From Myxococcales bacterium 68-20 (GTDB taxonomy: Bacteria > Myxococcota_A > Polyangia > Polyangiales > Polyangiaceae), in the NCBI GenBank assembly GCA_001899635.1, contig MKVQ01000005.1:621114-685113 (forward strand): DNA of 64,000 nucleotides, given 5' to 3'. Positions within the stretch are counted from its first letter, which is position 1; every line of letters starts with the position of its first letter. The position numbers and the translations under genes are program-made. The notes below the pieces were generated by a model. It searched no databases. It was not told the origin of the DNA and worked only from the letters and a program-made list of their open reading frames with translations. Below, in pieces: positions 4,939-59,978 of this stretch.

Positions 4939-4951
4939 GAGGGACTTCTAG

Positions 4952-32891: not shown

Positions 32892-34061
32892 CTACTCGGC
32901 TGTGTGATCGATCGTGGCCGGGCGTTCGAACGTGATGCGCGTGGACTGCTTGCGGACGCGCCGGTAGCCGAGGATGTGGAACATGTCGTGACGGTAGACC
33001 TGCGTCACGCGCTCCTCGACGACGAGTCGCGAAGGCTGCTCGGGATCGCGGGCGATGCCCGGGAGCAGGTGGAGGAAGCGATCGAGCTTCATGTGACGGA
33101 GGACCTCCGACACGCGCATGCGTGTGGAGCTCATCTCGCGTCCCCAGAAGAAGCCGTCCGCGCCCTGCCCTTGATAGAGCGGCAGGATCACCATGCCGTC
33201 CTTCGGCGCGCGCACCTCGCCGTGGCGGGTCCGCGCAAGGAGCTGCCCGGCACGCGCGCGCGCGAGGTTGAGGAAGCCGGGCTCCATCACGAACGCGTCG
33301 TCCGCGGTAATCGCGTGGCGCGAGACGACCTCCATCACGCGCGGGAGATCGCCGCGGCGGCGGTCGAGCAGTGCGTGGGCAGCGCCCGTCTCGGTGAGGA
33401 GGCCCGAGCCGAAGAGGCCGGCGGACTCGGCGCCGAGGAGGACGACCGCCTCGAGGTTGTCGACGGACCCCGGATCGTCGTGCTGACCGCCCTCGACCGC
33501 GAAGGTCGCGCAGCCCTGTTGTGTGAAGTAGGCGGTGAGGACGCCGTCGAGCGCCTCCTCCAGGCCCATGAGCAGCGGCAGCGGGATCACGCTCGCGAAC
33601 TTGCGCTGCTTCAGCGTGTCGCCGAAGAGGATGAACGGGAGGCCGTGCGCGCTCGTCGTGTGGAGGTCGATCAGGTAGACCGGGCCGCGCGCGCGTGCGA
33701 TCGCTGCGCGGATCGCGGCGAGTAGCTCGAGCTGCTCGTGGTCCTCCGCGTCGAGCGCCTCGCCGCTGCGGGCACGCGCCTCGAGGTCGGCGATGCGCTC
33801 GTTCGTCCAGACGCGGTTCATGTCGCGCTCGCGGTAGCGAATGCCGAGTCGCATCGCGCCGAGATTGCCGGCGAAGGCGACGAGCTCGCCCATCACGCGG
33901 CCCTGACGGCGCGTGAGCGTGGCGAGGGCGCGGCGGACGGCGCTGAGCCCGGCGTGCTCGTTGCCGTGGATGCCGGCGACGACGATGAGTGTTGGACCGG
34001 GCGCGTCTCCGACGACGCGCCCAATCTCTCGCCCCTCCGGCAAATCGTACGCGGCGCTCAT
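32892..34061 (-). CDS. AstE/aspartoacylase-like M14 amidohydrolase
   Basis: 389 aa from ATG 34061, which overlaps the stop of the GCS2-CBS gene (ATGA). The succinylglutamate-desuccinylase/aspartoacylase core is clear: VVAGIHGNEHAGLSAV (zinc ligands His32 and Glu35), NLGAMRLGIRYRERDMNRVW, YLIDLHTTSAHG (third ligand His) and ATFAVEGGQHDDPGSV (catalytic Glu). Such enzymes cut an N-acyl amide bond of an amino acid. The C-terminal part has FFWGREMSSTRMR. Last gene of a three-gene minus-strand operon, so it probably processes the product of the ligase in front of it. Confidence 0.92.
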   Translation of the reverse strand: MSAAYDLPEGREIGRVVGDAPGPTLIVVAGIHGNEHAGLSAVRRALATLTRRQGRVMGELVAFAGNLGAMRLGIRYRERDMNRVWTNERIADLEARARSGEALDAEDHEQLELLAAIRAAIARARGPVYLIDLHTTSAHGLPFILFGDTLKQRKFASVIPLPLLMGLEEALDGVLTAYFTQQGCATFAVEGGQHDDPGSVDNLEAVVLLGAESAGLFGSGLLTETGAAHALLDRRRGDLPRVMEVVSRHAITADDAFVMEPGFLNLARARAGQLLARTRHGEVRAPKDGMVILPLYQGQGADGFFWGREMSSTRMRVSEVLRHMKLDRFLHLLPGIARDPEQPSRLVVEERVTQVYRHDMFHILGYRRVRKQSTRITFERPATIDHTAE

Positions 34062-36238
34062 CGAGACGGTCTCCTGACCCCCTGTGGTCCTGCCGTGTGA
34101 TCGATCGCCTTCTCCCGCGTGGAGCTCTTCACGGAAGGCTCTTCGAGCGGTTCGAGAGCACCGATCTTCTGCTCGAGGAGATCGGCGGCGATGCCCATGA
34201 AGTCTTCCTCCATGACCATCGCAACGATGCGTCCATCCTTCACCACAGGCAAGCACCCAATGCGGTGCCGTCGCATCAGCGCGATCGCATCGAGCGTGGA
34301 GGTCTCGGGGGAGACGGTGACCAAATCTCGCTTCATCACCTCGCTCACCGTCACGTTCGCGGGCACGTTCGCCGGCACGTTCGCTGGCACAGGGGCTGGC
34401 GGAGAAGGTGCGCTCCCGAGCTTCTCGAGGTCCGCGATGAGGGACGCGGAGCTGTCGGAGCGCGGAAGCATGGCTGAGCTCTCGCTTCGCGGCAGCATCG
34501 CGGTGCTGTCCGTACGCGCGCCTGGGAGGTTCGCGAAGTGACGGAGCACGGCGCGCGAGGTCACCAAACCGACGAGCTTGCCGTTCTCGTCCTCGACCGG
34601 CAGGTGGCGAATGCGCTCCCAGCTCATGATGTCGGCGGCAAGCTCGACCGGATCGTTCGGATGGACGATCACGAGATCGGTCTGCATGTACTGCGAGACC
34701 TTCGCCCAGCCCGTACGCCGGGCCGACATCTCGTCGAGCCGAGCGCGCTCCCACTCGGCCACCGGACGCCCCGCATCCTGGCGCGCGATCGTCGCCGCGA
34801 CGAGCGCGGTGAGGTGCTCGCCGTGCGAGCCCTTTGCCTTCATGTCCGCGAGCGAGCGGAGCGCCCAGCGACTGCCGGTGTGGAGCGAGCGCACGCGCTT
34901 CTCGATGATGCCGAGGTACTTCTTCCCGTCCGCGTCGTCGACCCCCGCGCGTGCGAGGCCGGCCTCGGCGATGGGGAGCAGGCGCTCGAGCACGAACGGC
35001 TGCGCGATCACCTCCTCACCGTCGAGCCAGGAGAACCGAGCCGCGAGCCCGTCGCGCGCGGCGTTGTAGAAGTTCGCCTGCGCCTGGTCGAAGTCCATGC
35101 GCGACGGCAGATCCTCGATCGTCGCGCAGAGCTCGCGCATGAGGCCGATCCAGAACGCGGCGTTCGCGACCTCGTCGACGATCGACGGGCCCGAAGGGAG
35201 CGCGCGGAGCTCGATGCGCAGATGCGGCTTGCCGCTCGCAGAGATGCCGTAGCAGGCGCGGTTCCAGCGGTAGATCGTTCCGCTGTGGAGGCGGAGGGCG
35301 CGCAGCTCGGGGACGCCGCCGCCGTCGAGGACCATCATCGAGTCCTCGTCGACGCTCATCCCGACGAGCGGGCGGAAGCGGGTCACGTTCTCCTTGAAGA
35401 TGCCGACCGCGCCGCCGTGCGTCGCCCAGCCCTTCCCGAACGACACGCGCGGCGCGTCCTGACGTGCGTGGAGCGTGCGCGTGCGGATGTCGCAGGACTG
35501 CTCGAAGAGCGCGATGCGCGTCTCTGCCCAGAGACGCTTGCCGAACAACGTGGGGGAGTTGGTCCCGATCGCGAGCGTCGGTGCGAGCACGAGCTGCGCG
35601 ACGTCGTAGTCGTGACCGAAGCGGCTCGGATCGATCGACTGGAGATGGACCTGGAAGCTCGCGTTGCACGCCTCGAACATCAGCGAGTCGTGCTTCGCGA
35701 CGAGCTCGTCGAGGCCCTTGATCGCGATGTCGTAGCCGTCGCCCTTCGCCGCGCGCATCACGCGGTTGAGCGTGAGGTAGCGCGGGTTCGGCACCATGTT
35801 CTCGAGTGACAGGTCCGTGCGCGCGAGCGTGGGGAGGATCCCGGCGAGCACCGGCTGGACGTCGAGCTCGGAGGCGACGGCCTGGACGCGCGCGTAGAGC
35901 TGGACGAGCTGCGCCTCCATCCTTGCGAGCCCGGCGCCCTCGAGCGCCTGCGGGTCGGCGTTCATCTCGAGGTTGAAGAGCCCGAGCTCGGTGGTGAAGT
36001 GCGGATCGGCGACCCGGTCGATCAGCTCGAGCGCCGTCGGCGACGCGTTGTAGGCGCGGTCGACGAGGAACATCTCCTGCTCGGCGCCGATCGTGGAGAT
36101 GCCGGTCTCGAACCGGCCCTCGGCAAGCATCCGCTCGAGCGCGCGGAGGTCGGTGAGCAGGGCCCGCACGTAGCGCGCGCGTTCCGCGCCCTGGAGCTCG
36201 CCGGCGGTGGTCTTGTCGTTGAGGGGGCCGATTTCCAT
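34058..36238 (-). CDS. GCS2-type carboxylate-amine ligase fused to a CBS pair
   Basis: 726 aa. Residues 1 to about 470 are a glutamate-cysteine-ligase-2-like domain (STIGAEQEMFLVD, FNLEMNADPQAL, AIGTNSPTLFGKRLW, HLRIELRALPSGPSIVDEVANA). This family joins an amino acid gamma-carboxylate to an amine with ATP. Two CBS modules follow (starting near 517 and 632), which commonly bind adenine nucleotides. The linker between them holds short repeats, AMLPRSESS/AMLPRSDSS near 578-597 and PANV three times near 616-627. An allosteric AMP/ATP sensor on a peptide-ligase is the inference. It starts 2 bp after the esterase stop and overlaps the AstE-like gene. Confidence 0.9.
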   Translation of the reverse strand: MEIGPLNDKTTAGELQGAERARYVRALLTDLRALERMLAEGRFETGISTIGAEQEMFLVDRAYNASPTALELIDRVADPHFTTELGLFNLEMNADPQALEGAGLARMEAQLVQLYARVQAVASELDVQPVLAGILPTLARTDLSLENMVPNPRYLTLNRVMRAAKGDGYDIAIKGLDELVAKHDSLMFEACNASFQVHLQSIDPSRFGHDYDVAQLVLAPTLAIGTNSPTLFGKRLWAETRIALFEQSCDIRTRTLHARQDAPRVSFGKGWATHGGAVGIFKENVTRFRPLVGMSVDEDSMMVLDGGGVPELRALRLHSGTIYRWNRACYGISASGKPHLRIELRALPSGPSIVDEVANAAFWIGLMRELCATIEDLPSRMDFDQAQANFYNAARDGLAARFSWLDGEEVIAQPFVLERLLPIAEAGLARAGVDDADGKKYLGIIEKRVRSLHTGSRWALRSLADMKAKGSHGEHLTALVAATIARQDAGRPVAEWERARLDEMSARRTGWAKVSQYMQTDLVIVHPNDPVELAADIMSWERIRHLPVEDENGKLVGLVTSRAVLRHFANLPGARTDSTAMLPRSESSAMLPRSDSSASLIADLEKLGSAPSPPAPVPANVPANVPANVTVSEVMKRDLVTVSPETSTLDAIALMRRHRIGCLPVVKDGRIVAMVMEEDFMGIAADLLEQKIGALEPLEEPSVKSSTREKAIDHTAGPQGVRRPSR

Positions 36239-36239
36239 C

Positions 36240-36998
36240 TTAGACCTGCACCGCTCTTTCGACCTTCTTCGGCGCGGTCCAGTCGTCGAGATACTTCGGT
36301 AGCTTCGCGCGCCACGTCACCCAATCGTGATCGACGTTGCCCCACGACTCGACCCAGTTCGGGATCCCCTTGTCGCCGAGAACGCTCCCCATCCGGAAGC
36401 TCTCGCCGATGTTCTCCCACTTGCCCTCGCCCGACGCGAGATGGATGTAGCGCGTGCGGAGGAGGTCGAGGTGAGGGCCCGCGAGCGTGGGCACGAAGTG
36501 CAGCGGTGACGAGACACGGTAGTAGTCCGTCGGCTGCGGATGATCGATGAAGCGCAGGAGCTCGTAGCTCCCGCTCATCCCGAGCGCGCGGTGGAACAGA
36601 TCGGGGAAGCGGCAGGTCACCGCCACGGCGTGAAACGCACCGATCGATGCCCCCGTCGTCCAGATCGGAATGTCCGGCGTCTTGCAGTCCGTGCGGATCG
36701 CGGGGACGACCTCGTGCTTCACGTACTGATGAAACTGGTTCATCACGTACATGCGGTGCTCGACATGCTGCTGCTTGTCGAAGAACACGCGGCCCGCGAT
36801 GCTGTCACACGAGTAGACCTTGATGCGTCCGGCAGCGAGCAGCGGCTCGAGCACCTGGATCATCTTGAAGCGCTCGACCTCCTCGGCATCCCCGCCGGCC
36901 GTGGGGAAGAGGAGGATCGGCTGACCGGAGAACCCCCAGCGCGCGAGCGTCGTGTCGCACTGCAAGCGTGACGAGTACCAATGAGACTTCTCGAACAT
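36240..36998 (-). CDS. esterase-family protein (alpha/beta hydrolase fold), copy 1
   Basis: 252 aa. Serine elbow TTGASIGAFHA (G-x-S-x-G), then a region with HRALGMSGSYELLRF, and the C-terminal catalytic histidine in GNVDHDWVTW. This is the esterase-D/Fes type fold. It is the first gene of the esterase, GCS2-CBS, AstE-like operon. A second esterase in the downstream ATP-grasp operon carries closely similar motifs. The substrate may be an ester or an activated amide of the ligase product; that is an inference. Confidence 0.9.
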   Translation of the reverse strand: MFEKSHWYSSRLQCDTTLARWGFSGQPILLFPTAGGDAEEVERFKMIQVLEPLLAAGRIKVYSCDSIAGRVFFDKQQHVEHRMYVMNQFHQYVKHEVVPAIRTDCKTPDIPIWTTGASIGAFHAVAVTCRFPDLFHRALGMSGSYELLRFIDHPQPTDYYRVSSPLHFVPTLAGPHLDLLRTRYIHLASGEGKWENIGESFRMGSVLGDKGIPNWVESWGNVDHDWVTWRAKLPKYLDDWTAPKKVERAVQV

Positions 36999-37337
36999 GC
37001 ATCCCTGCCCTGCCCCGGAGAGGACGGGCCCTCACCAACCCCAACCGAAGAGCTTGTGATCCGTCGTAGCGGCGCGCGGGCCCCGTCGCAAGTAAACCCT
37101 GAAACCCCGCGCATTTGAGACATCCCGGAGCCGAGCTGGAGGCCTCGGCGCGTGGCCAAATCGGCTCCGGCCGAGCTAGCTATCCTCACGGGACACATGG
37201 GCTTCGCGTCGGTCGCCGGGCCCCCGCGGCCCCTCCCTCGCCGGGGCACGCCATGCTCGTCGGTCGACCGTCACCAGACCCGAGGAAGTCGAGTCGGTGC
37301 GGGGCCCTCGACGCTCGTGATAAATCTTGTCGCGGGC
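36999..37337. other. divergent promoter region between esterase and kinase genes
   Basis: No gene. Holds the promoters of the minus-strand operon and the plus-strand kinase. The kinase frame is open from 37152 but without family-like sequence before 37338. Confidence 0.5.
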
Positions 37338-39425
37338 ATGGTGGAGCATCGGCCGTCGGGCTGGATCGGCGCGGTCCTGCAAGGCAAGTGGCGGATCGAG
37401 GCGAAGATCGCCCGTGGCGGCGTCGCGACCGTCTTCCGCGCGACGCACCGGCGAGGTCAGGTCGCCGCGATCAAGATCATGCACCCCGAGCTCGCGCAGA
37501 ACGCCGACGTGCGGAGCCGCTTCCTCCGTGAGGGCTATGCCGCAAACAAGGTCGGGCATCCCGGCGTCGTGCGCGTCCTCGACGACGACGTGACCTCCGA
37601 CGGCACGGCGTACATCGTGATGGAGCTGCTCGAGCACGGCGAGGAGCTTGAGGACATGCGCGAACGGAGCGGCGGGTTCCTCCCCGTCCAGGACGTGGCC
37701 CGCATCTGCGACCAGGTCCTCGAGGTCCTCGCGGCCGCGCACGAGCAGGGCATCATCCATCGCGACATCAAGCCGGAGAACATCTTCGTCCTCGAAGGCG
37801 GCTCGGTGAAGGTGCTCGACTTCGGGATCGCGCACATCAAGGAGGCGGCCGCCGCTTCCGGAGAGCGGACGGCCACGGGGCTCCTGCTCGGCACGCCGGA
37901 GTACATGGCGCCGGAGCAAGCGCTCGGGAAGCGCGGACAGATCGACGCGCACACCGACGTCTATGCCGTCGGCGCGACGATGTTCACGCTCCTCTCGGGC
38001 GAGGCCGTCCACGTACAGGACACGCTGAGCGCCTTGCTGATGGCCACATCGACCCGGCAGGCGCGGACGCTTGCGTCGACGCGCGTCGGGAAGACGATCC
38101 CGCGCGAGGTGATCGCGATCGTCGACAAGGCGCTCGCCCTCGAGAAGCATCGACGCTGGCGGAGCGCGAGCGAGATGCGGGACGCGCTCCGGAAGGCCGT
38201 GCCGCAGGAGGTTCCGTCCAGGCCGTCGCTCGCGCCGCCCGCGACGACGCCGCAGAGCGGCGCGAAGGCGGAGACGGCACCGCCCCCCGCCGACGCCGCG
38301 CCTCCGCAGAAGGCGATCTCGCTGAAGCCCCCGCCGATGCAGAAGCTGCAGCGCATCCCGCTGCCGTCGGCGCCGCCGCCGGGACCGGGAACGACGGCAC
38401 CGAGAGCACTGGTGAAGATCCCGGCGCCCTCGGCCGTGCCCGGCGCCACGTCGCGCGCGGGTGTAAAGGTCCCCGCGCCCGGTGTTCCCGCGATCCCGCC
38501 GGGCGCAGGCGTGAAGATGCACGCGCCGCCCGCGATCACGCCGGGCTCGGGCGTGAAGGTCCCCACGTCGCCGCCACCGCGTGCGTCGCGGCCACCTCCA
38601 GCTCCGCTGGCGGCGCGGCCGGTCGCGAACAAGCCTCCGGCGTCGCTCGCTCCTTCGTCGGAGCCGAAGAGCGATCCCCCTCCGCCGTCGTCAGGACGGA
38701 CCTCCGTCGTCGGTGCGCCTTCGCCGTCGCATTCCGAGCGCACCGTCGTGCGCCCGCCGCGCGCCGCTCCGGCGGCCGACTTCCGCGCGCCGATCGACGG
38801 GAGCCTCGAGTCCGCCTCGCTCCCCACGCCGTACGACGCGAACGATCCGTGGACCGCCGAGTTCACCGACGGCGACATGGAAGGCCCGACCGTCTCGACG
38901 ACGGAGTCGCCGGCGCTGCGCTCCCTCCCTCCCCTCCCTCGATCCGTCGCGCAGTCGGCGGAAGCGACACACGCTCTTCCCGCTCCCCCGATCGCCCGCG
39001 CGGCGAGCAGCATCGCCGCCACTCCCGGCCCGGCGTTCGTCGCCGAAGACACCAGGCGCACGGTGCGCCTCGATCGACCGGGAACCGACGGCGCAGTCGA
39101 CCCGAGGCAGCTCACGCCGTTCGCGCCGTTCCATTTCGAGCGAGAAGGTGGCGGCTCAATCCTTCCGCCGCCACCACGACGAGCCGAGCGCGATGCCATT
39201 TCGCGCACCGCGCCGGTCCTGTCGTCCGTCGACGCGCACATGCGCGAGGCGGCGGGGCCGATGGCGAGGGGACAGGCTGGCTGGCTCCCGCATCAGGTGT
39301 CGCCGCGGCTGCCCCCGCCGGAGGCAACGAAGCCGCAGGCCATACGGCTCGCGGAGCTCGCCCTCGCCGCGCTCGTGGTGATCACGCTCTCGATCGGCGG
39401 CTGCATCCTGCTCCGGCATCGCTGA
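37338..39425 (+). CDS. eukaryotic-type Ser/Thr protein kinase with C-terminal membrane anchor
   Basis: 695 aa from ATG 37338, just before the kinase domain. Subdomain marks: G-loop IARGGVATVF (26-33), Lys46 in VAAIKIMHP, HRDIKPEN at 141-148, DFGIAH at 161-166, GTPEYMAPEQ, and DVYAVGATMFTLLSGE. A tail of about 370 residues, very rich in Pro and Ala, holds a repeated word of the type (S/G)VKVPAPG. One transmembrane segment closes the protein (LALAALVVITLSIGGCILL). Typical of Myxococcota PSTKs. It faces the AMP-sensing ligase operon across a divergent promoter. Confidence 0.95.
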   Translation: MVEHRPSGWIGAVLQGKWRIEAKIARGGVATVFRATHRRGQVAAIKIMHPELAQNADVRSRFLREGYAANKVGHPGVVRVLDDDVTSDGTAYIVMELLEHGEELEDMRERSGGFLPVQDVARICDQVLEVLAAAHEQGIIHRDIKPENIFVLEGGSVKVLDFGIAHIKEAAAASGERTATGLLLGTPEYMAPEQALGKRGQIDAHTDVYAVGATMFTLLSGEAVHVQDTLSALLMATSTRQARTLASTRVGKTIPREVIAIVDKALALEKHRRWRSASEMRDALRKAVPQEVPSRPSLAPPATTPQSGAKAETAPPPADAAPPQKAISLKPPPMQKLQRIPLPSAPPPGPGTTAPRALVKIPAPSAVPGATSRAGVKVPAPGVPAIPPGAGVKMHAPPAITPGSGVKVPTSPPPRASRPPPAPLAARPVANKPPASLAPSSEPKSDPPPPSSGRTSVVGAPSPSHSERTVVRPPRAAPAADFRAPIDGSLESASLPTPYDANDPWTAEFTDGDMEGPTVSTTESPALRSLPPLPRSVAQSAEATHALPAPPIARAASSIAATPGPAFVAEDTRRTVRLDRPGTDGAVDPRQLTPFAPFHFEREGGGSILPPPPRRAERDAISRTAPVLSSVDAHMREAAGPMARGQAGWLPHQVSPRLPPPEATKPQAIRLAELALAALVVITLSIGGCILLRHR

Positions 39426-39466
39426 CGCGCGACGCGGAACAGGAAGCGCTCGCCGATCGTGTGGCC

Positions 39467-39925
39467 TCAGCCCTTCAGCTTCGCGATGTCGTCGAGCACG
39501 GCCTTCTCGTGCCCGTTCGGATCGACCTTCGTGTAGACCTTGCGAACGACGCCGCTCGGATCGACGAGGAACGTGGTGCGGTCCCAGTACATCGTCCCCT
39601 TCCATTCGGACTGGCCGACGCCGAGCGCACCGAGGAGCTTCGTCTCCGGATCGGCGAGGAGCTCGATCGAGAACGAGAACTTGTTGCAGAAGTCCTTGTG
39701 CGACGACACGTCGTCCGCGCTGAGACCGACGACGACCACCCCCGCAGCATCGTAGTCCGCCTTGGTCGCAGTGAAGGACTTGCCCTGGATCGTGCAGCCC
39801 GGGGTGTCGTCCTTCGGGTAGACGTAGAGCACGAGCCACTTCCCGGCGTAGCTCGCGTTGGTCTTCGTCTGTGCGTCCTGGTTCTCGAGACTGAACTCGG
39901 GGAGCTTCTGGCCGGCGTCGATCAT
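39467..39925 (-). CDS. peroxiredoxin of the BCP/PrxQ type, apparently one-Cys
   Basis: 152 aa. YPKDDTPGCTIQGKSF holds the peroxidatic Cys44 in the P-x-x-x-T-x-x-C motif; the resolving Cys five residues later, usual in BCP, is Lys here. The only other Cys is in SHKDFCNKF (about 80), a position that resolves in some PrxQ proteins. It reduces peroxides with a thiol reductant. It faces the kinase gene convergently. Confidence 0.93.
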   Translation of the reverse strand: MIDAGQKLPEFSLENQDAQTKTNASYAGKWLVLYVYPKDDTPGCTIQGKSFTATKADYDAAGVVVVGLSADDVSSHKDFCNKFSFSIELLADPETKLLGALGVGQSEWKGTMYWDRTTFLVDPSGVVRKVYTKVDPNGHEKAVLDDIAKLKG

Positions 39926-40030
39926 GGACGGTGGTCTATCACGAAGGCCTCGTGGAGAACGCCGGGTGGGTGCACGATTCCCGTGTCACGGCATGACGGC
40001 TGCACGAGGAGCGCTCGGAGTCGGGAGCCA

Positions 40031-41422
40031 ATGGCCGAAGCGCGCAGGAATCACGGTGGATCGCTCGTCGGGTCGCGGGATCGCCTGGATCGCCGACGTG
40101 GATCCCGCGGGCACCTGCGGGCCATCGCGACGGTCGTCGCGCTCGCATGGGCGGTCGGCTGCTCGAGCGCAACGAGCAACGACAGCGCGCCTCTCGATGA
40201 CTCGAGCACCACGCCTCCCGAGGCGACGGACGTCGGCGCGCCGACCGATCCGACGACACCGCCGAAGCCCGACGGCTCTTGTCGCTCGGCGGCCGAATGT
40301 GAATCAGGAGTGTGCAAGGACTCCGCTTGCGTTGCCCCTTCCCCCACCGACGGCGTGAAGAACGGCGATGAGACGGACGTCGACTGCGGAGGGACCGCCG
40401 CGCCGAAGTGCGCCACTGGCAAGACGTGCAAGGCACATGGGGACTGCGAGACCGACGCGTGCCCTTCGGGGATCTGCGCCGCCTCGCGAAGCTGCCGCCA
40501 GCACTTCGGCGGTGACACCTGCGGCGTGCGCGAGGTCGACGATCCGGCGCGGGCCCACGAGGACTGTTGCGTCTCGATCCAGCCGGGCAACAAGCCGTAC
40601 CGCCTCGACAAGTACCTCATCACCGCCGGGCGCATGCGCGCGTTCATCGAAGCCGTCGGCGGCAACGCTCGCAGCTGGGCCCAGGCGAATCGCGCGCTCT
40701 TGCCGGCGGAGTGGTCCGACACCTGGGACAACTCCCTCCCCGCGAACGAGGTCGACGTCGTCCAGCTCATCGGGACCGGTCAGGGCGCGAACGCCTACTG
40801 GAACACGCAGGGGCGCGCGAACGGCTGCTACGCCAAGGGAATGGGCGGCCCGACGTACTGGCATCCGGCCGACAAGCTCCTCGCCTACTCGGACGACGTC
40901 CGCGGCTGGACGAAGGACGAGCTCGACACCAAGACGCTCAACTGCGCGCCGCGGGCGCTCTTCGTCGCGTTCTGCGCGTGGGACGGCGGGCGCCTGCCGA
41001 CGTACCAGGAGTGGCTCTACGCGATCCGCGGCGAGGAGACCGAAGCCGCGCGCCCGTTCCCGTGGGGCACCGACACGAACATCTCCGCGCGAGCGTCGTA
41101 CAACTTCAACTACGCGTGGCCTCCGCCGCGCGCCGGCGTGCCGCTCGCGAACGACGGCATGCCGATCGATCGCGCCTACCAGGTCGCCGCTCCCGGGCGG
41201 TTCCCGACGGGCAACGGACCGTTCGGCCACGCCGATCTCCTCGGGCTCGTCGAGACGTTCGTCGCCGGCAATGCGTCGGGCGCCAACCTCGAGCGAGGCG
41301 GCGTCCGCCAATACGCCTTCCAGGAGGCGTACTACGGAGTCGAGAAGTACGGCTCGCCGAAGACGTGGGGCCACTACATCAGCCACTACGCCGTCGGCGC
41401 CCGCTGCGCGCGCCCGCTCTGA
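40031..41422 (+). CDS. Cys-rich FGE-sulfatase-fold lipoprotein
   Basis: 463 aa from ATG 40031. A basic N-terminus precedes a signal with lipobox AWAVGC (Cys44). Residues 80-160 form a Cys-rich module (CRSAAECESGVCKDSAC, CATGKTCKAHGDCETDAC) like those in myxobacterial surface proteins. The FGE-type domain follows: YRLDKYLITAGRMRAFIEA, LFVAFCAWDGGRLPTYQEW, PFPWGTDTN, GHADLLGLVETFVAG, and YAVGARC at the end. The catalytic Cys pair is not present. Third protein of this fold here. A strong hairpin terminator follows. Confidence 0.85.
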   Translation: MAEARRNHGGSLVGSRDRLDRRRGSRGHLRAIATVVALAWAVGCSSATSNDSAPLDDSSTTPPEATDVGAPTDPTTPPKPDGSCRSAAECESGVCKDSACVAPSPTDGVKNGDETDVDCGGTAAPKCATGKTCKAHGDCETDACPSGICAASRSCRQHFGGDTCGVREVDDPARAHEDCCVSIQPGNKPYRLDKYLITAGRMRAFIEAVGGNARSWAQANRALLPAEWSDTWDNSLPANEVDVVQLIGTGQGANAYWNTQGRANGCYAKGMGGPTYWHPADKLLAYSDDVRGWTKDELDTKTLNCAPRALFVAFCAWDGGRLPTYQEWLYAIRGEETEAARPFPWGTDTNISARASYNFNYAWPPPRAGVPLANDGMPIDRAYQVAAPGRFPTGNGPFGHADLLGLVETFVAGNASGANLERGGVRQYAFQEAYYGVEKYGSPKTWGHYISHYAVGARCARPL

Positions 41423-41460
41423 ATGACCGAGCGTGATTCGAAATCACGCTCGGCCCATTC
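41421..41460. terminator. bidirectional hairpin terminator
   Basis: CCGAGCGTGATT (41427-41438) pairs perfectly with AATCACGCTCGG (41442-41453); outside it GAATG and CATTC extend the stem. It lies between the convergent FGE-fold gene and the ATP-grasp operon. Confidence 0.75.
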
Positions 41461-41476
41461 AGGCCCTTCTCATCAC

Positions 41477-41568
41477 GGGGCGGCACGCGCCGCCCCGCCC
41501 CGAAAGAGCGCGGTCTTTCGGGGTCCCCACCCCACGCGGGCTCGCTTCGCGAGCTAGATCGCGAAGCG
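41477..41568. repeat. three further perfect hairpins in series
   Basis: GGGGCGGC/GCCGCCCC at 41477-41496 (8 bp, loop 4), CCCCGAAAGA/TCTTTCGGGG at 41498-41523 (10 bp, loop 6), CGCTTCGCGA/TCGCGAAGCG at 41543-41568 (10 bp, loop 6). They follow the terminator above, so four hairpins fill the 160-bp gap. None has a T-run. Confidence 0.9.
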
Positions 41569-41583
41569 CGACCGGCTCTCGAG

Positions 41584-42834
41584 CTAGGCGCGCTTGGCGC
41601 CGGGCTCCTCCGACTTGCGCCACTGCTGGATGCGGTCCCAGAAGTGCTCGGTGAACTTCTCGTGCTCGTGCGCCGGGAAGAGCGCGGCGACCTTCTGCCG
41701 GACGGCCTCCTTCGCGGGCGTGCTGCCGAAGAAGCTCCAGGCGACCTCGTCGAGGTGCGAGAGGTGCTTGGTGCAGAACTCGTCGAAACGTTCGGTGTCG
41801 AAGCGCTCGTCGGCGATCTTGGCGTAGCGATCGAGCTTCTCCTCGAACGAGAGGTCCGTGTCCGCGATCGCGATGAACGGCGCCCAGTCCTGGTTCTTCC
41901 GCATCTTGCGCTTCGTCGCGGCGCAGAAGATCGACCAGCGAAGATAGGCCTTCACCATCCACGGGAAGTGCCAGTGCAGGGACGTCACCTGCGAGTCGGG
42001 GCACGGGTTCGCGTAGTCGATCGGATACCAGAGCTCGTCCTTGCGGAGCGCCTCGCAGGAGTTGAACTCCCAATCGAAGAACGCGTTGATCGTCAGGGTG
42101 ATCTTGCGGAGGTGCGCCTCTTCCTCCTTGCTGATGAAGTTCGTCTCCGTCGTGTAGCGCTCGTGGAGCGGCGCTGCCGGGTCGTAGAGGACGCAGTGCG
42201 TCTGCGGACCGAAGCCGATGCAGCGGACGAAGCGGTCGAAGCCGTGCACCGCCTGCTGCACGTGCATGACCGACTTGCCGCTATCGTCGTAGGCCTTCCA
42301 GAGAGCCTCGGCGTCGTCGACCTTCGTGACGCCGCGCCAGCCGCCGCCGTCGTACGGCTTCATGAACATCGGCCAGCCGAGCTTCTGTCCGAGGAGGCTC
42401 ACGTCGAAGAGCTTCGCGTGCCGCGAGAGCGTGAGCTTGAGATCGGGATTCGGCTCGTACGTCTTCGGCGGGATCATCCACGTCTCGGGGATCCGCATCC
42501 CGAGGCGCATCATTGCGCAGTACGTGGTGTGTTTCTCGTTGGCCTGGACGCTCCACGGGTTGTTGAACACGTAGAGGTCATCCATCAGGATGGCCTTCTT
42601 TATCCACTCACGACTCGTGTGATACCAGTGCGTCAGCCGGTCGACGACGAGGTCGTACTTGCAGTCCTGGCGGAGATCGAACGGCTCGATCGTGACCCGC
42701 TCGACCGCGAAGCGCACCGTGTCGCCGTCGTGCGGGATGCGGAGGTCGAGCTCCTTCATGATCGCTTCGAAGCAAAGCGGCCAGCAGATGTCCGCGCCGA
42801 GCGAGAGCCCGATGTGCCTAGTTACTTCTCCCAT
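41584..42834 (-). CDS. ATP-grasp enzyme (last gene of the ligase operon)
   Basis: 416 aa from ATG 42834. It begins GEVTRHIGLSLGADICWPL; the ATP-grasp body is seen from SLLGQKLGWPMFMKPYDGGGWRGV (nucleotide-binding Lys and Gly loop) to AFFDWEFNSCEAL and WYPIDYANPCPD, where the metal-binding D/E-x-N is replaced by a D-Y-A-N-P type motif. The last 100 residues are helical and charged. It belongs to a different ATP-grasp branch from the other operon member (45090). Substrates are unknown. It follows the esterase by 41 bp. Confidence 0.88.
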   Translation of the reverse strand: MGEVTRHIGLSLGADICWPLCFEAIMKELDLRIPHDGDTVRFAVERVTIEPFDLRQDCKYDLVVDRLTHWYHTSREWIKKAILMDDLYVFNNPWSVQANEKHTTYCAMMRLGMRIPETWMIPPKTYEPNPDLKLTLSRHAKLFDVSLLGQKLGWPMFMKPYDGGGWRGVTKVDDAEALWKAYDDSGKSVMHVQQAVHGFDRFVRCIGFGPQTHCVLYDPAAPLHERYTTETNFISKEEEAHLRKITLTINAFFDWEFNSCEALRKDELWYPIDYANPCPDSQVTSLHWHFPWMVKAYLRWSIFCAATKRKMRKNQDWAPFIAIADTDLSFEEKLDRYAKIADERFDTERFDEFCTKHLSHLDEVAWSFFGSTPAKEAVRQKVAALFPAHEHEKFTEHFWDRIQQWRKSEEPGAKRA

Positions 42835-42875
42835 GATCCTGCTCTCCCCTACTCCCCAGTAGCGACTCTCTGTCG

Positions 42876-44057
42876 TTATTCGTAGATGAACATCAGCGGG
42901 CCCGGGAAGAGCCACGAGAGCCCTTCGCGCAGGCGGTCCCGCCAGTTTTCCCAGTTGTGACCGTCGCGCGCCTCGACGAACTTCACCTGCATGCCGGTGG
43001 AGTCGAGCAGCGGAACGAGCGAGCGGTTCTCGTAGATCAGCGACTCGTAGACACCGCAGCTCATGAAGACGCGCTCGCTCACCGCCATCGGGTTCGCGCG
43101 CACCTGGTTCACGAACTCGACGACCTTGTCGAAGAGCGGGCCGCGCCGGTTCGTCTTCCCGATGTCGGTGAAGGCGAACGAGCCCGACTGGAGGAGCAAG
43201 CGCCCCCACACGCCCGGGTAGCGGTACGCCGTCGAGAAGGCCGCGACCGCGCCGAAGCTCGCTCCCATGAGGCAACGCGACTGCGGGCGATCGATGATCG
43301 GCAACCGCTGCGTCAGGTCAGGCAGGAGCTCCTCGGTGAGGAAGCGCGCGTGCTGCTCCGTGTTCGGGTACTCGCGGATGCGATCGGGCGAGTCCGTGAA
43401 CGCGACGATCATGTCGGGGATCTCGAGACGCTCGATCAGGTTGTCGAGCACCGTCTTCATCGCCGCAAAGTTCAAGTAGTCCTTGCCGTCGTGCACGACG
43501 AGGAGCGGATAGAGGCGCGACTTGCGGAAGCGCGCCGGCAGGTAGATGTGCCCGCTGCGCATCCCGCCGAACGCCTTGCTGTGGAACCCGAACGGCTCGA
43601 GGAGCCCCGGGCGCGCGGTCGGGTCCGGGCGCACCCAGTCGGGGACCGCGTAGCCTTCACCCTGGAGGACGGAGTTCGCGCCGAACGGGTCGCGCGCACG
43701 GTTCGGATTGCGCGGGTCCTCGATCCACTCGCTCCGGTCCGCCCGATGGATCTCGAACTTGTACTCGACGCGCGAGCCGTGAGGGATGTCGAGCGTCAGA
43801 TGCCAGAGGTCCGTGTTCGGGATGCGCGTGAGGGAGCTGCCCGACTCGAGGCCGAAGATCCAGTGGCGGAGGCTCACGCCGTTCGCTTCGCCCCTCCAGA
43901 CGAACGTGACCGCGGGTCCTTCGACGATCGGGATCGCGCGCCCCTCGAGGAAGCGATCGACCTTCGCGCCGTCCGGCTTCGAGTCGATGAGCGCCTGGAT
44001 CGCCGACTTCGGCGCCGCCCGCATCGACGCCGAGGCGGGCTTCATCGATCGCTTCAT
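42876..44057 (-). CDS. esterase-family protein with N-terminal beta domain, copy 2
   Basis: 393 aa from ATG 44057, overlapping the stop of the preceding gene (ATGA). Residues about 40-150 form a beta-sandwich like the E-set/CBM48 domain of Fes-type enterochelin esterases (VTFVWRGEANGVSLRHW, RVEYKFEIHRADRSEW). The esterase domain follows: YPLLVVHDGKDYLN, nucleophile CLMGASFGAVAA, and catalytic His in DGHNWENWRDRL. The G-A-S-(I/F)-G-A and H-x-W motifs match the esterase of the neighbouring GCS2 operon, suggesting related substrates. Confidence 0.92.
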   Translation of the reverse strand: MKRSMKPASASMRAAPKSAIQALIDSKPDGAKVDRFLEGRAIPIVEGPAVTFVWRGEANGVSLRHWIFGLESGSSLTRIPNTDLWHLTLDIPHGSRVEYKFEIHRADRSEWIEDPRNPNRARDPFGANSVLQGEGYAVPDWVRPDPTARPGLLEPFGFHSKAFGGMRSGHIYLPARFRKSRLYPLLVVHDGKDYLNFAAMKTVLDNLIERLEIPDMIVAFTDSPDRIREYPNTEQHARFLTEELLPDLTQRLPIIDRPQSRCLMGASFGAVAAFSTAYRYPGVWGRLLLQSGSFAFTDIGKTNRRGPLFDKVVEFVNQVRANPMAVSERVFMSCGVYESLIYENRSLVPLLDSTGMQVKFVEARDGHNWENWRDRLREGLSWLFPGPLMFIYE

Positions 44058-45019
44058 GAGCCGATCCCTCCAGCCCCCGAGACCTCGAACTTGGTATGGG
44101 TCCCGTCGTCGCGCAGCGCGAGGATGCCGGACGGGTTCTTCGGGCCGCGCTTCAGCCACGTCACGCGCGAGCGCGCCGGCAGCGCGAGGCAGGTCGCCGG
44201 TGCGAAACGGCGAGCCAAGACGCTGATGCGCTCGCGATCGTCGAGGCGGAGGCGGAACTCCGGCTGTGGGAGGCACACCACGTCGCCGACCAGCGCGAGC
44301 CCTTCGTCGAGCACCTCCGCTGCGCCTGGGCCCTGCGGCGGCGAATGATGGAACAGGACGACGCGCTCGCTCACCGCCATCGCGCCACCGCACCACGCGA
44401 ACACGACCTTGCCGGCAGCGAGCTTCGCGATGTCGAACATGCGCAGGCGGTTGAGGAGCGAGGCCACGTGACCGCCCGCGATCGCGATCGCGTCGCAGCC
44501 CTTCACGATCTCGGCGATCTCGGCGATCTGGTCGGCGACCGCGGGGCGCTCGGTCGGGCGCCAGCGCTCCTCGAACGCCTTGTGATCGCGCACGCAGCGC
44601 TCGAGGTGCATCCGATCGATGTCGCGGATCGCCTGGATCGAGGCACGCGCCTCGTCCCGGAGGATGTCCTTCGGCGCGGCGCGGCTCGCGATGACGTGCT
44701 GCGCCTCGAGCGCGTGCTCGAGGCGGATCCGGTAGAAGTCCTGGCGATGACGGAGGATCGCCTGACGCTCACGATGCGCGGCGTGCAGGTCGGGATCGTT
44801 CTTGAAGACCTCCTCTGCCCGCGCGTGGAGACGCAGGTTCACCGTGCGCCCGCCGAGGTGATCGTGGAGCTCGTCGTCTTCCTCTTCGCGCTCCTGCCAG
44901 CCCGCGGTGATCGCCGCGATGGAGCCCTCGACGCCGAGCTCCGCCACCGCGTCCGCGAGCGTGGGATCGAATCGTTGCGCGCCGAGGAGGACGACGGCGC
45001 GCGTGTTGCCGGAAATCAA
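44054..45019 (-). CDS. class I glutamine amidotransferase-like / S51-like protein
   Basis: About 321 aa from TTG 45019 (GGAGG upstream); GTG 45058 is an alternative. The start TRAVVLLGAQRFDPTL and the central IAIAGGHVASLLNRLR fit the peptidase-S51/cyanophycinase fold. The nucleophile loop reads VVFAWCGGAMAVSERVVLF. Related proteins have W-S-A-G-A-M there as I remember them, so Ser seems replaced by Cys. PPQGPGAAEVLDEGLALV and RISVLARRFAPATCLALP follow. A Cys nucleophile would suit amide transfer or hydrolysis; this is an inference. Second gene of the four-gene operon, overlapping the esterase by 4 bp. Confidence 0.82.
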   Translation of the reverse strand: MISGNTRAVVLLGAQRFDPTLADAVAELGVEGSIAAITAGWQEREEEDDELHDHLGGRTVNLRLHARAEEVFKNDPDLHAAHRERQAILRHRQDFYRIRLEHALEAQHVIASRAAPKDILRDEARASIQAIRDIDRMHLERCVRDHKAFEERWRPTERPAVADQIAEIAEIVKGCDAIAIAGGHVASLLNRLRMFDIAKLAAGKVVFAWCGGAMAVSERVVLFHHSPPQGPGAAEVLDEGLALVGDVVCLPQPEFRLRLDDRERISVLARRFAPATCLALPARSRVTWLKRGPKNPSGILALRDDGTHTKFEVSGAGGIGS

Positions 45020-45089
45020 CGGGGGTGCCCTCCGACTGCTCGGCGAGCCTCCGACCACCCCATCGGAAGCCGCCGTTCCATCCGTCCGC

Positions 45090-46316
45090 TCATGATGCGC
45101 GCACCTTCAACGTCTGCCCGACGACGTCGAGCATCGAGCGCAGCGTGTCGTAGTCGTAGTGCTTCATCCGGAGCCACGCGTTCGCCATGTACCCCGCCTC
45201 GACGCCCTGCGTGGGCGTACCCGGCGGCGGGAAGTGGCTGTCGATGATCATGCCGTCGAAGCGGCGGAAGATCTCGTCCTTGCCATCGTAGTGCGTGATG
45301 TGCCCGTCGCGGTCGGGCCGGAGCGCGATGATGCCGGCGGCGAAGCGACGCGAGAGCGTCTGGCTCGGCTTGCCGTGCACGATCGCCATCGCCCACTCGC
45401 GGTAGATGTCGAACTCGTTGGCCGCGGCGTAGAGGTCCCACGCGCGCACGCCCGGCGGCCGGCAGCCGATCTCGCTGAACTTGAGCCCCTTCGGACCGTA
45501 GAACCACTCCATGTGCGTGGCGGAGGTCCCGATGCCGAGCGCAGTGATGACCTTCTGGCCCATCTCCTTCAGCTCTTCGTAGCTCGGCTGATCGACGCGG
45601 TTCGTGGCGATGAACTGGGGCGAGATCCAGCGTGTCCGCATCGCCTCGAGCACGTTCGGGTAGTAGTGCGAGACGAAGTCGTGGATGACCTTCCCGTTCG
45701 CGGTGATCGTGTCGTAGAAGCCCTCGTGTCCCTCGATGAACTCCTCGACGGCGACGCTGCGTCCCTTGTCGACGTGACACGCGACGAGCGCATCGTGGAG
45801 CTCGCCCGCGTCGTTCGCGCGGTAGGTCCCCGAAGCTCCGGCGGCGTCGCGCGGCTTCACGATGAGCGGGAAGCCGACCTTCTCGGCGAACTCCTTGATC
45901 TCGGCCGGATCGGAGCTGCCGATCGACTGCGCGCAGGGAACGCCCGCCTTGCGCAGCGCTTCCTTCATCGCCGGCTTGTCACGGCAGAGGAACGCCGTCT
46001 GGACGCTCGTGCCCGGGATCCCGCACCTCTCACGGACGCGAGCTGCCGCCATGACGTGCGCCTCGACCACGGCCTCGAGCCGCTCGATCTTCACGCCGGG
46101 GCGCGCCTGGAGCCAGCGCACCGCCTTCTCGAGCTGGCCCTCGTCGGTGACGTTGCCGATCTCCTCGTAGTGCGTCAGCCACTGACGCAACCCGTCGTCG
46201 AGCGACGATTTCGGCCGCTCGCCGATGCCGATGACGCGAGCACCGACGGAATGAAGAGCACGCGCGAACTCGCGCTGGTTCGCAGGGAATGACGGCTCGA
46301 TGAAGATGACGTCCAC
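45090..46316 (-). CDS. ATP-grasp ligase (first gene of the operon)
   Basis: 408 aa from GTG 46316; longer upstream frames lack family-like sequence. It starts VDVIFIEPSFPANQREFARA, then CRDKPAMKEALRKAGVPCAQ (typical biotin-carboxylase-like ATP-grasp entry), FPLIVKPRDAAGASGTYR (ATP Lys), VEEFIEGHEGFYDTI, and the metal site HMEWFYGPKGLKFSEIGCRP. Two paralogues at 58758 and 60154 share H-M-E-W and G/S-E-I-x-x-R-P. The enzyme probably forms an amide bond with a carboxyl phosphate intermediate. It is followed by the amidotransferase-like gene after 70 bp. Confidence 0.93.
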   Translation of the reverse strand: MDVIFIEPSFPANQREFARALHSVGARVIGIGERPKSSLDDGLRQWLTHYEEIGNVTDEGQLEKAVRWLQARPGVKIERLEAVVEAHVMAAARVRERCGIPGTSVQTAFLCRDKPAMKEALRKAGVPCAQSIGSSDPAEIKEFAEKVGFPLIVKPRDAAGASGTYRANDAGELHDALVACHVDKGRSVAVEEFIEGHEGFYDTITANGKVIHDFVSHYYPNVLEAMRTRWISPQFIATNRVDQPSYEELKEMGQKVITALGIGTSATHMEWFYGPKGLKFSEIGCRPPGVRAWDLYAAANEFDIYREWAMAIVHGKPSQTLSRRFAAGIIALRPDRDGHITHYDGKDEIFRRFDGMIIDSHFPPPGTPTQGVEAGYMANAWLRMKHYDYDTLRSMLDVVGQTLKVRAS

Positions 46317-48414: not shown

Positions 48415-49167
48415 ATGAAGAACCCATTCATCGCGACCGCGTCGTGCGCCCTGATGTGTGTAGTCCTTGCCTGCGGTCAGCCGCACGAAGACTTTGGCGG
48501 GGTCGATCCCGCAGCGCCGCCGCCCGGTTCGTGCGACCAGAATCCGAACGGCGATTGCTATCCAATCGACGATCTCGGAACGAATCCCCGACAAGGAAAG
48601 ACGGCTGGACAGCGCATTAGAAACCTCAAGTTCTTCGGCTTCAAGAACATCGACCCGTCAACCAAGACCGACCCCAGCGGTGCCCCTCAGCGTGTCTCGC
48701 TCTCGGAGTTCTACGACCCGACCGGGACCCAGTTCAAAGTCATTCACCTCATCGGAGCCTCCAACTGGTGCCCGCCTTGCAACCACGAAACCGAGGTCAT
48801 TGCCTCGAGTGCTGCCGCAAAGCTGGCTCCGCGAGGCGTCGTCTTCCTCGAGGCTCTCATCGACGGCCCTACTGGTGGCGTCGGCGCGACCACGGAGGTC
48901 TTGAAGAAGTGGATTACGGGGCCGCGTCGAGACGACAGCGGCCAGGTCTTCACCACTCCGCTCAACTTCACAGTCATGCTCGATCCTGACCAGAACGCGC
49001 TCGGCCCGTTCTTTCAGGCCAACTCAGTTCCCTTCAACCTGAACATCGACGCCCGATCGATGGAGATCCTGACATCGCGCCAAGGCGCGCCGCCGGACAT
49101 CGTGGCGGACGTCGAGAAGTGGCTGGATTGGACGGCAAGCCATCCCGCCAAGGGCACGAACGAATAG
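48415..49167 (+). CDS. thioredoxin-like lipoprotein, WCPPC type
   Basis: 250 aa from ATG 48415 with GAGGAG before it. Lipobox VVLAC (Cys20). After a Cys/Pro-rich spacer and a beta strand region (KFFGFKNIDP), the thioredoxin fold shows IHLIGASNWCPPCNHETEVI with active site Cys119-x-x-Cys122, and a cis-Pro-like NSVPFNLNID. Such folds act on disulfides in the periplasm or at the outer membrane. First gene of the plus-strand operon; 14 bp separate it from the next. Confidence 0.9.
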   Translation: MKNPFIATASCALMCVVLACGQPHEDFGGVDPAAPPPGSCDQNPNGDCYPIDDLGTNPRQGKTAGQRIRNLKFFGFKNIDPSTKTDPSGAPQRVSLSEFYDPTGTQFKVIHLIGASNWCPPCNHETEVIASSAAAKLAPRGVVFLEALIDGPTGGVGATTEVLKKWITGPRRDDSGQVFTTPLNFTVMLDPDQNALGPFFQANSVPFNLNIDARSMEILTSRQGAPPDIVADVEKWLDWTASHPAKGTNE

Positions 49168-49181
49168 AGCCAGGAGCCAGA

Positions 49182-49724
49182 ATGACCTCCAACGGACTGC
49201 GATGCTTCGTCGTCGCGACGATCTTCCTCTCTGCATGCGGCGTGAAGAGCGACCCGAGCGAAGGCGCAAAGAGTCCCCTCGGCAAGGGAACGACGGCCAA
49301 GGACTTCACCACGAAGGACGTCGACGGTCAGACATTCCGCCTGAGCGATCATGTTGGAAAGAGCGTGATCCTGATCGACTTCTGGGCGACGTGGTGCGAG
49401 CCCTGTCTTGCGGAGTTTCCGCATCTCCAGACGCTCTACGATCAGAACAAGAGCAAGGGATTCATCGTCGTCGCCGTCTCGATGGACGGTCCCGATTCGA
49501 TCGCGATGGTTCCCGCGTTCGTGAAGCGCAACGGACTCACCTTCCCCGTCGTCCTGGACGAGGACTCACGCATCGCGAGTATCTACAATCCGCGCAAGAG
49601 CGCACCGCTCTCCGTATTGATCGACCGCGCGGGGCACATCGTCGTCGTCCGCGAAGGGTACAACCCAGGAGACGACGAGCTCATCGCCGCGGACGTTCGA
49701 CGTGTCCTCGACGCAGTCGAATAG
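49182..49724 (+). CDS. TlpA/ResA-like thioredoxin lipoprotein
   Basis: 180 aa; ATG 49182 preceded by CAGGAG. Lipobox LSAC (Cys19). TlpA-type domain: AKDFTTKDVDGQTFRLSDH, VILIDFWATWCEPCLAEFP (active site 71-75), VSMDGPDSIAMVPAF, and SAPLSVLIDRAGHIV with the cis-Pro. It is a thiol reductase of the ResA/TlpA family. Having two different thioredoxin lipoproteins side by side suggests a relay. The stop overlaps the beta-barrel gene by 23 bp. Confidence 0.94.
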   Translation: MTSNGLRCFVVATIFLSACGVKSDPSEGAKSPLGKGTTAKDFTTKDVDGQTFRLSDHVGKSVILIDFWATWCEPCLAEFPHLQTLYDQNKSKGFIVVAVSMDGPDSIAMVPAFVKRNGLTFPVVLDEDSRIASIYNPRKSAPLSVLIDRAGHIVVVREGYNPGDDELIAADVRRVLDAVE

Positions 49725-51579: not shown

Positions 51580-55184
<3,605 letters not shown>

Positions 55185-55188
<4 letters not shown>

Positions 55189-58757: not shown

Positions 58758-59978
58758 CTACTCGGCGTAGTGGACCTTCACCGTCTCGATGATCTTCTTG
58801 ACCATGGCTCGGACGGTGTCGGTGCTCTCGTGGCGGACGACGACGTACCCGTCGCCCTCGTAGCTGTCGGCCTTCGTCGCGCCGAGGGTCGGGAGCTTCG
58901 CCTCCATGACCCACTTGCCGACGGCTTCGTGCACCTCGTGGACGCCGGTGACGTTGACGATGCGGCCCTGCCCCATCCCGCGGAGGTAGGCGCAGCCGAC
59001 CGCGTATTTCCGCGGCCACGGCGCATCGAGCTCGTTGTCGACGACCGCGCGCGCCCAGGCCCGGTAGGCGTCGATGTCGTGCGCGAGGCCGGTCATGCGG
59101 GTGAGGTTGGCTCCGGGCGGACGCTGCGCGATCTCGCCAATCGCAAGAGAGCCGTCCTCCTTCTCGAACCACTCCATGTGCGTCATCCCGCTGTCGAGAC
59201 CGAGCGCCTCGATCGCGGCGAAGCCCATCGCGCGAGCCTTCTCGTGAAGGGGACCGCCGATCTCTCGAGGCAGGATGGTGGCCCACTGGATCCACGCGTT
59301 CTCGACGACGTCGAGGCAGCTCGGGTGGTAGTCGGAAATCGACCACGCCTGCGGCTTGCCCGAGATCGTGATCGTCTCGAAGCTGTGCTCGCGCCCGCGA
59401 AGCATCTCCTCTGCAAGGACGGGCGAGCTCGGTGATACGCGCATCCCCACCACGGCACGGAGGAGCGCATCGAGCGAGCTGACCCGGAACGTCGCCTTCG
59501 CGCCCATGCCTGCGGGCGGCTTGAGGACCATCGGGAAGCCGACCTGCTCCGCGAACCCTCGCGCGTCGGCCTCCGACGTGACGAGGCAGTGCTTGGCGAC
59601 CGGCAGGCCGGCGGCGCGAAGCGCGTCCTTCATCCGCGCCTTGTCGCGGAAGAGATCGGCGACCTCGGGCCGCGTGCCCTCGATGCCGAACCGTGCGCGC
59701 GCCTCCGCGAGCTGGACCATCATCGGCTCGAGAATGCCGATGAGCCGATGAGGCTGCCCGTGACGCCGGCGGAGCACCTCCACACCTTCGAGCACGTCCC
59801 CGAGGTCGAGGGGCCTCGTGACCCGTACGACGTCGTGGAAGAGGCGCGCGTCGTCCCCTTCCGGCGGGGTATGGCAGACACCGAGGAGGCGCACGTCGTC
59901 GAGCTTCGCCGTTGCCCGGACGAAGCGCATGGTGGTCTCGATGGGGAACGGGGCTACGAAGATGACGTTGCGGGGCAT
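58758..59978 (-). CDS. ATP-grasp ligase, paralogue 2
   Basis: 406 aa. RNVIFVAPFPIETTMRFVRA start, FRDKARMKDALRAAGLPVAK, FPMVLKPPAGMGAKATFRV (ATP Lys and Gly loop), EEMLRGREHSFETI, and metal site HMEWFEKEDGSLAIGEIAQRP. The order and spacing equal those of the ATP-grasp genes at 45090 and 60154. It is divergent from the third paralogue across 175 bp. Confidence 0.92.
   Translation of the reverse strand: MPRNVIFVAPFPIETTMRFVRATAKLDDVRLLGVCHTPPEGDDARLFHDVVRVTRPLDLGDVLEGVEVLRRRHGQPHRLIGILEPMMVQLAEARARFGIEGTRPEVADLFRDKARMKDALRAAGLPVAKHCLVTSEADARGFAEQVGFPMVLKPPAGMGAKATFRVSSLDALLRAVVGMRVSPSSPVLAEEMLRGREHSFETITISGKPQAWSISDYHPSCLDVVENAWIQWATILPREIGGPLHEKARAMGFAAIEALGLDSGMTHMEWFEKEDGSLAIGEIAQRPPGANLTRMTGLAHDIDAYRAWARAVVDNELDAPWPRKYAVGCAYLRGMGQGRIVNVTGVHEVHEAVGKWVMEAKLPTLGATKADSYEGDGYVVVRHESTDTVRAMVKKIIETVKVHYAE

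Follow-up and report, generated by a model that had tools for sequence, protein, structure and literature searches.

What role might a group of putative amide ligases, esterases and amidohydrolases have alongside a glycogen synthase? The question is raised by a 64,000-nucleotide stretch of DNA from Myxococcales bacterium 68-20 (contig MKVQ01000005.1, positions 621,114 to 685,113 of the forward strand; the window in what follows), which lies within an 11.9 Mb assembly. An original prediction, made from the letters of the window, had described seven minus-strand genes in two operons, A (A1 to A3) and B (B1 to B4), and proposed that they build, modify and trim a small peptide or gamma-glutamyl-like product. 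All seven genes are present as claimed, and the set was incomplete in that it missed the glycogen/starch synthase GlgA and two further ATP-grasp ligases, B1b and B1c, in the same window; with these three added the likely context moves from a free peptide to glycogen. We consider that the seven genes together with GlgA, B1b and B1c form a module functionally tied to glycogen (alpha-glucan) metabolism, a reading to which we give a probability of roughly 0.7. The ten genes are as follows, with E-values in brackets.

A3: 32892-34061, minus strand, predicted AstE/aspartoacylase-type Zn amidohydrolase (PF24827, 4.5e-17)
A2: 34058-36238, minus strand, GCS2-like carboxylate-amine ligase with two CBS domains (CBS, 3.5e-28; GCS2, 2.7e-4)
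A1: 36240-36998, minus strand, short PF00756 serine esterase (1.2e-6)
B4: 41584-42834, minus strand, RimK/Ddl-type ATP-grasp ligase with an extra C-terminal helical region (from AlphaFold2 and Foldseek)
B3: 42876-44057, minus strand, enterochelin-esterase-like serine esterase with an early-set-like N-terminal domain (PF00756, 2.6e-18; Enterochelin_N, 2.8e-7)
B2: 44054-45058, start approximate, minus strand, peptidase S51/cyanophycinase-like fold (from AlphaFold2 and Foldseek)
B1: 45090-46316, minus strand, L-amino-acid-ligase-type ATP-grasp ligase (PF02222, 1e-9)
GlgA: 55731-57194, plus strand, glycogen/starch synthase of glycosyltransferase family 5 (GT5), cluster-linked clade (PF08323, 1e-75)
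B1b: 58758-59978, minus strand, second B1-family ATP-grasp ligase, 32% identical to B1 (PF02222, 8.3e-8)
B1c: 60154-61371, start inferred, plus strand, third B1-family ATP-grasp ligase, 34% identical to B1 (ATP-grasp_3, 5.2e-6)

Within the window the two operons are compact, with ATGA overlaps confirmed at 34061-34058 (A3/A2) and 44057-44054 (B3/B2) and a gap of 1 bp between A1 and A2; B4 extends to 41584, which is lower than the original outline of operon B though still within the interval 32892-46316. It is in relatives that the two operons are seen to belong together. The order B1-B2-B3-B4-A1-A2-A3 on one strand was found in 11 loci of a chosen sample of 20 neighbourhoods around B4 orthologues, seven of them having gaps of at most 600 bp with nothing matched between, so that the refuting condition named in the original prediction, two operons never linked in relatives, does not hold. 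When the survey was widened to 80 loci (L-numbers below), these being the best 80 of 452 confirmed B4 relatives, the same order was found in 17, with tight runs in 10, and A3 is the last gene of the run. Counting only loci with room, as many end at a contig edge, B3 adjoins B4 in 73/78 and B2 comes next in 68/75, A1 adjoins B4 in 54/74 and A2 adjoins A1 in 36/51, and B1 adjoins B2 in 39/65. Of these 80 loci the closest to that of the window are from Labilithrix metagenome-assembled genomes (MAGs), with a B4 that is 90% identical.

Co-occurrence in other Myxococcota, which the original prediction had proposed as a check, points the same way: across 283 genomes of the phylum B4 (at least 55% identity) is present in 77, A1 in 63 and both in 60, and B1 was found in 47/47 tested B4-positive genomes. 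From conserved order and co-occurrence together, the association of the seven genes exceeds chance, and two unrelated operons are ruled out by the same-strand runs. The motifs GAS(I/F)GA and H-x-W, by which the operons had been thought to be tied, are indeed common to A1 and B3, but they are general features of PF00756 esterases and it is gene order that makes the connection. B4 relatives of about 30% identity in ten loci were left out of the orthologue counts; in three of these ten (L051:6841-8498, L055:9352-10999 and L060:8783-10412) A1 and B4 relatives of about 30% identity stand side by side and the rest of the cluster is not there, possibly a minimal pair of esterase and ATP-grasp ligase.

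In the window, and in its nearest kin L071 and L072, the two halves are separated by a pair of genes on the opposite strand, which is probably a later insertion because relatives show tight uninterrupted runs:

Ser/Thr protein kinase: 37152-39425, plus strand (PF00069, 8.5e-41)
FGE-sulfatase/EgtB-like domain gene: about 39458-41422, start approximate, plus strand (PF03781, 8.5e-8)

The connection with glycogen comes from the neighbours of this core. When neighbouring genes were clustered over the 80 loci, GlgA was the commonest extra neighbour (35 open reading frames in 34 loci), and of the 50 loci with room 34 have it no more than 600 bp from B1, in 24 of them on B1's strand and in 10 divergently. 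The window GlgA is by domain and motif a GT5 glycogen synthase, scoring 255 bits for PF08323 against a cut-off of 22.7, and is predicted to make alpha-1,4-glucan from ADP-glucose; KxGGLxD is found in 41/41 linked GlgAs. The layout of L071 runs B1c, B1b, GlgA, B1, B2, B3, B4, FGE, kinase, A1, A2, A3 in about 16 kb, and B1b stands beside GlgA there and in other loci, the same gene set being spread in the window over 32.9-61.4 kb by inserts. Between B1 and GlgA lie an AhpC/TSA-type thiol peroxidase-like gene (49119-49724; 4.5e-24) and a regulator with TPR and sigma-54 activator domains (51580-55188; Sigma54_activat, 8.8e-69), which may be a local regulator or an unrelated insert. Four consecutive ATP-grasp genes of the B1b/B1c type are found at L148:13947-18862.

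Of the three GT5 genes in the assembly a single one belongs to the cluster, and this one has the same domain and motif as other bacterial GlgAs but falls in a clade separate from the other two. For the trees a GlgA was called linked if its start was within 7 kb of the start of B1 or B4, or if it adjoined B1 elsewhere in the genome; in L145 and L133, though counted as linked, the gene near GlgA is not an adjoining B1. The first tree (64 rows) places 41 linked and two solo genes in one clade (100/99) with the other 21 apart. A second, to which paralogues from other phyla were added and in which three long rows are unsure, groups 24 linked and four other genes (100/100) with 26 others outside, the linked GlgAs of this one clade coming from Myxococcota, Acidobacteriota, Planctomycetota and Gammaproteobacteria MAGs. 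The four non-linked members are the solo genes of genomes G008 and G010 and two genes from genomes with B4 elsewhere, one on a 3.3 kb contig and one without a core gene in 11.4 kb. Two same-genus genomes (4.2 and 4.8 Mb) have a solitary clade-type GlgA, at L184:5242-6702 and L185:9550-11010, with no core gene in the 17-19 kb fetched.

Among 45 genomes chosen for comparison, a GlgA of at least 50% identity is present in 25/25 relatives in which B4 has an orthologue and in 2/20 in which it has none. Over 38 loci the distances of GlgA are correlated with the distances of B1, B4 and B3 (Spearman 0.70-0.75), a result that shared ancestry of the hosts can produce as well. Links to other alpha-glucan enzymes are found in a few genomes. 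In G337, G338 and G339, where the B4 loci (L141, L143 and L149) are without GlgA, a GlgA lies beside B1 or 1.4 kb from it elsewhere, in one of them accompanied by MalQ and GlgC; in a Gammaproteobacteria MAG (L138) the cluster has GlgB, GlgC and another GlgA as neighbours, and an Acidobacteria MAG (L127) has a 4-alpha-glucanotransferase 8 kb away. Furthermore, 4/47 B4-positive genomes from distant groups have near the core a GlgA that is 40-42% identical, called different by this identity alone and outside the trees, three times with GlgC and once with MalQ, and in two there is a gene of the FGase-like kind described below beside GlgC.

The original assignments to ATP-grasp, GCS2-like, AstE-like and esterase families are correct at the superfamily level, as seen from Pfam, PDB and Foldseek matches. 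The profile searches were run with B3 lacking one codon at its start and with B1 and B4 extended upstream by some codons, which leaves the matches unaffected. A2 scores 20.8 bits for GCS2, just short of the 21-bit Pfam cut-off, and carries a GAEQE motif; its alignment has 13 rows. With regard to glutathione synthesis, it scores 21 bits for the YbdK subfamily, far under the cut-off of 176. A3 reaches the superfamily PF24827, does not reach the AstE equivalog TIGR03242 (42.5 bits, cut-off 305.65), and has HxNE, DLH and EGG, which we take to be its catalytic motifs. G-A-S-(I/F)-G and H-x-W are present in the two esterases, whose Ser and His are invariant in the orthologue alignments (Ser118 and His224 in 19 rows for A1). 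In the PDB B3 matches Fes (1.5e-19) over most of its length, and like Fes and the CE1 feruloyl esterases that bear carbohydrate-binding modules (CBMs) it joins an esterase to an early-set-type N-terminal domain, although with 106.4 bits it does not reach the cut-off of 222 for the enterochelin esterase NF007758; Enterochelin_N was matched at its N-terminus in 20/20 orthologues.

The closest solved structures to B1 are L-amino-acid ligases (RizA, BacD), with 3.7e-20 for the ligase 4wd3 and 1.8e-14 for BacD in a PDB profile search, the difference here being three paralogues and a glycogen synthase as neighbour. B4 has no Pfam match, weak matches to D-Ala ligase and LysX, and no match in a search of a plasmid collection; its AlphaFold2 model (mean pLDDT 83.7) has as best Foldseek match RimK 5zk6, bound to RpsF (2.2e-9). 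For B2, originally taken as class I amidotransferase-like, this assignment did not hold. It has no Pfam or NCBIfam match, the only PDB sequence-profile match was to PdxT with a non-significant E of 0.25, and its AlphaFold2 model (mean pLDDT 87.7, with a long helical insert) is nearest to folds of the S51 type: all 12 Foldseek matches with E of at most 0.001 are cyanophycinases or dipeptidases E (6nqc, 5.7e-7; cyanophycinase 3en0, 3.3e-6), with query-length TM-scores of only 0.40-0.46. At the position that we take to be the counterpart of the conserved Ser of the S51 nucleophile motif, 21 orthologues have Cys (11), Ser (6), Thr (2) or Ala (2), the conserved Ser of S51 thus being found in 6/21, and since this presumed nucleophile varies B2 may be no hydrolase at all.

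A second deacylase-type gene was found in the relatives, a relative of N-formylglutamate amidohydrolase (FGase-like; PF05013, 3.1e-10). A3 is present in 21/80 loci and the FGase-like gene in 12/80, and both in 0/80; because the two are never found together, the AstE-type and FGase-like genes read, from their distribution, as one deacylase replacing another. In the 12 loci concerned (L106, L108, L109, L113, L117, L118, L120, L122, L123, L125, L131 and L148) the FGase-like gene is directly upstream of GlgA, and no AstE-type A3 is present within the sequence stretch available.

A number of observations weigh against a tie to glycogen. All of the 80 loci are from MAGs. No GlgA is present within the 15.8-20 kb fetched in 20/20 loci chosen from distant-group B4-positive genomes, which rules out GlgA as a constant component of the core, and only 4/47 such genomes have a GlgA within about 10 kb of the core; a stand-in neighbour was looked for in the distant groups, and the best recurrent family, lipoprotein-like, was found in 5/23 loci. 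A GlgA of at least 50% identity is missing from 47/77 B4-positive genomes, all 47 of which have some GT5 gene. Among 15 genomes reached through other loci two (L150 and L127) have no GlgA at E of at most 1e-20, that of L147 has only a 37% match, and that of L115 has a GlgA (46%) without core genes. Conversely a clade-type GlgA is alone in G008 and G010, where B4 is absent, and G061 and G199 are likewise without a full B4 at the threshold used, G061 having a piece of B4 at a contig end.

Two broader lines of evidence in favour have their limits as well. In a comparison that ignores phylogeny, a GT5 gene is present in 77/77 B4-positive Myxococcota genomes (47 searched, 47/47, Fisher 6.5e-10, and 30 found by protein search) versus 43 of 80 B4-negative ones, chosen as about every second of 170 (Fisher 7.8e-14), and in genomes of at least 5.5 Mb the contrast narrows to 39/39 versus 27/38 (1.8e-4). 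The early-set/starch-binding resemblance of B3 is weak: with E up to 1, CBM_20 was matched in 12/20 orthologues (best 0.012) and CBM_48 in 6/20 (best 4.7e-4), the window protein scores 15.2 and 14.0 bits respectively, both under the cut-offs, and CBM-bearing esterases match B3 only in the esterase domain.

What is supported directly is the gene set, its conserved order, the recurrent link to a GlgA clade, the few genomes with GlgC, GlgB or MalQ, and the retention of catalytic motifs in ligases and esterases. As to mechanism, covalent decoration of glycogen is the one that we prefer, held tentatively and well short of even odds, and it is unproven. B1, B1b, B1c, B4 and A2 would form ATP-driven amide bonds between amino acids, probably Asp or Glu, to give an acidic conjugate; the CBS pair on A2 could read adenylate charge and thus sense energy; B3 and A1 would transfer the product onto, or off, sugar hydroxyls of the glucan made by GlgA; and A3 or the FGase-like protein would remove an acyl group by hydrolysis of an N-acyl amino-acid intermediate. 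Amides of Asp or Glu are what cyanophycinase/dipeptidase E, AstE/aspartoacylase and N-formylglutamate amidohydrolase work on, and RimK and GCS2 relatives also act on Asp or Glu; it is from the S51, AstE and FGase neighbour families that the guess of Asp or Glu is made. Taken at its fullest, this would be a pathway of several phyla that decorates glycogen covalently with amino acids or short acidic peptides by means of a GlgA clade of its own, as many as five amide ligases, esterases that bind glucan and a deacylase for which AstE and FGase types can replace each other, a proposal that we think rather unlikely.

Carbon and nitrogen might instead be stored side by side, the ligases making a free cyanophycin-like or short acidic peptide reserve that is recovered by the S51-like and AstE/FGase-like enzymes, with GlgA co-located through common control of reserves. 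This is possible rather than probable. The cyanophycinase/dipeptidase E fold of B2, the CBS pair on A2 and the distant groups that retain the core without GlgA would all suit such a reserve, yet there is no cyanophycin synthetase (B1 has 31.3 bits for TIGR02068 and does not reach the cut-off of 850), the nucleophile position of B2 is Ala or Thr in 4/21 orthologues, and the two esterases are left unexplained. Cyanophycin metabolism proper, with the ATP-grasp synthetase CphA and the S51 cyanophycinase CphB, has an ATP-grasp ligase and an S51 fold in common with the cluster, which differs from it in having no full-length CphA relative, a B2 without a fixed nucleophile, and esterases and GlgA in addition.

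It would seem unlikely, although several amide ligases and hydrolases and the 20/20 sampled distant loci with a core lacking GlgA are what it would lead one to expect, that the product is a peptide or gamma-glutamyl-type metabolite (a signal, osmolyte or low-molecular-weight thiol), as in the original prediction, with GlgA a bystander; GlgA is next to B1 across four phyla, in two orientations and in a clade of its own, and a mere bystander would not be expected to come together anew with another kind of GlgA plus GlgC. Quite improbable in our view is a modification of protein, in which the ligases, RimK-like B4 among them, add amino acids to enzymes of glycogen metabolism and so regulate glycogen synthase, leaving the glucan unchanged. 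The top Foldseek match of B4, a RimK bound to RpsF, would agree with this, as would the protein kinases often found nearby, though such genomes are rich in kinases; the layouts read showed neither a conserved small acceptor protein nor a tail (open reading frames below 80 aa were not clustered), the compact cluster L122 has no room for an extra gene, and the esterases are again unexplained.

Operons of related character have been predicted before: Iyer et al. in 2009 reportedly described predicted amidoligase operons with ATP-grasp and GCS2/glutamine-synthetase-like ligases. These reportedly also bring peptidases and a number of ligases of ATP-grasp and GCS2-like type into a single predicted operon, the cluster differing in its specialised GlgA clade, two PF00756 esterases and CBS-fused GCS2-like ligase.

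Elsewhere in the window is a tRNA-Cys gene (4951-5023). In the literature searched, whose coverage leaves out most subscription papers, no paper describes the cluster by title or abstract, and the passages available from PMC4431377 and PMC2922099 hold no description of it. Amide-ligase operons are of a known predicted kind; their combination with a GlgA clade and esterases is without description in that literature.

A conserved set of genes that is often accompanied by a glycogen synthase of its own suggests a pathway, so far unrecognised, in which amino-acid chemistry is connected with glycogen. The glycogen of bacteria is generally regarded as glucan and nothing else; if the proposal is true, some bacteria would either attach amino acids to it or link metabolites rich in nitrogen with the storage of carbon.

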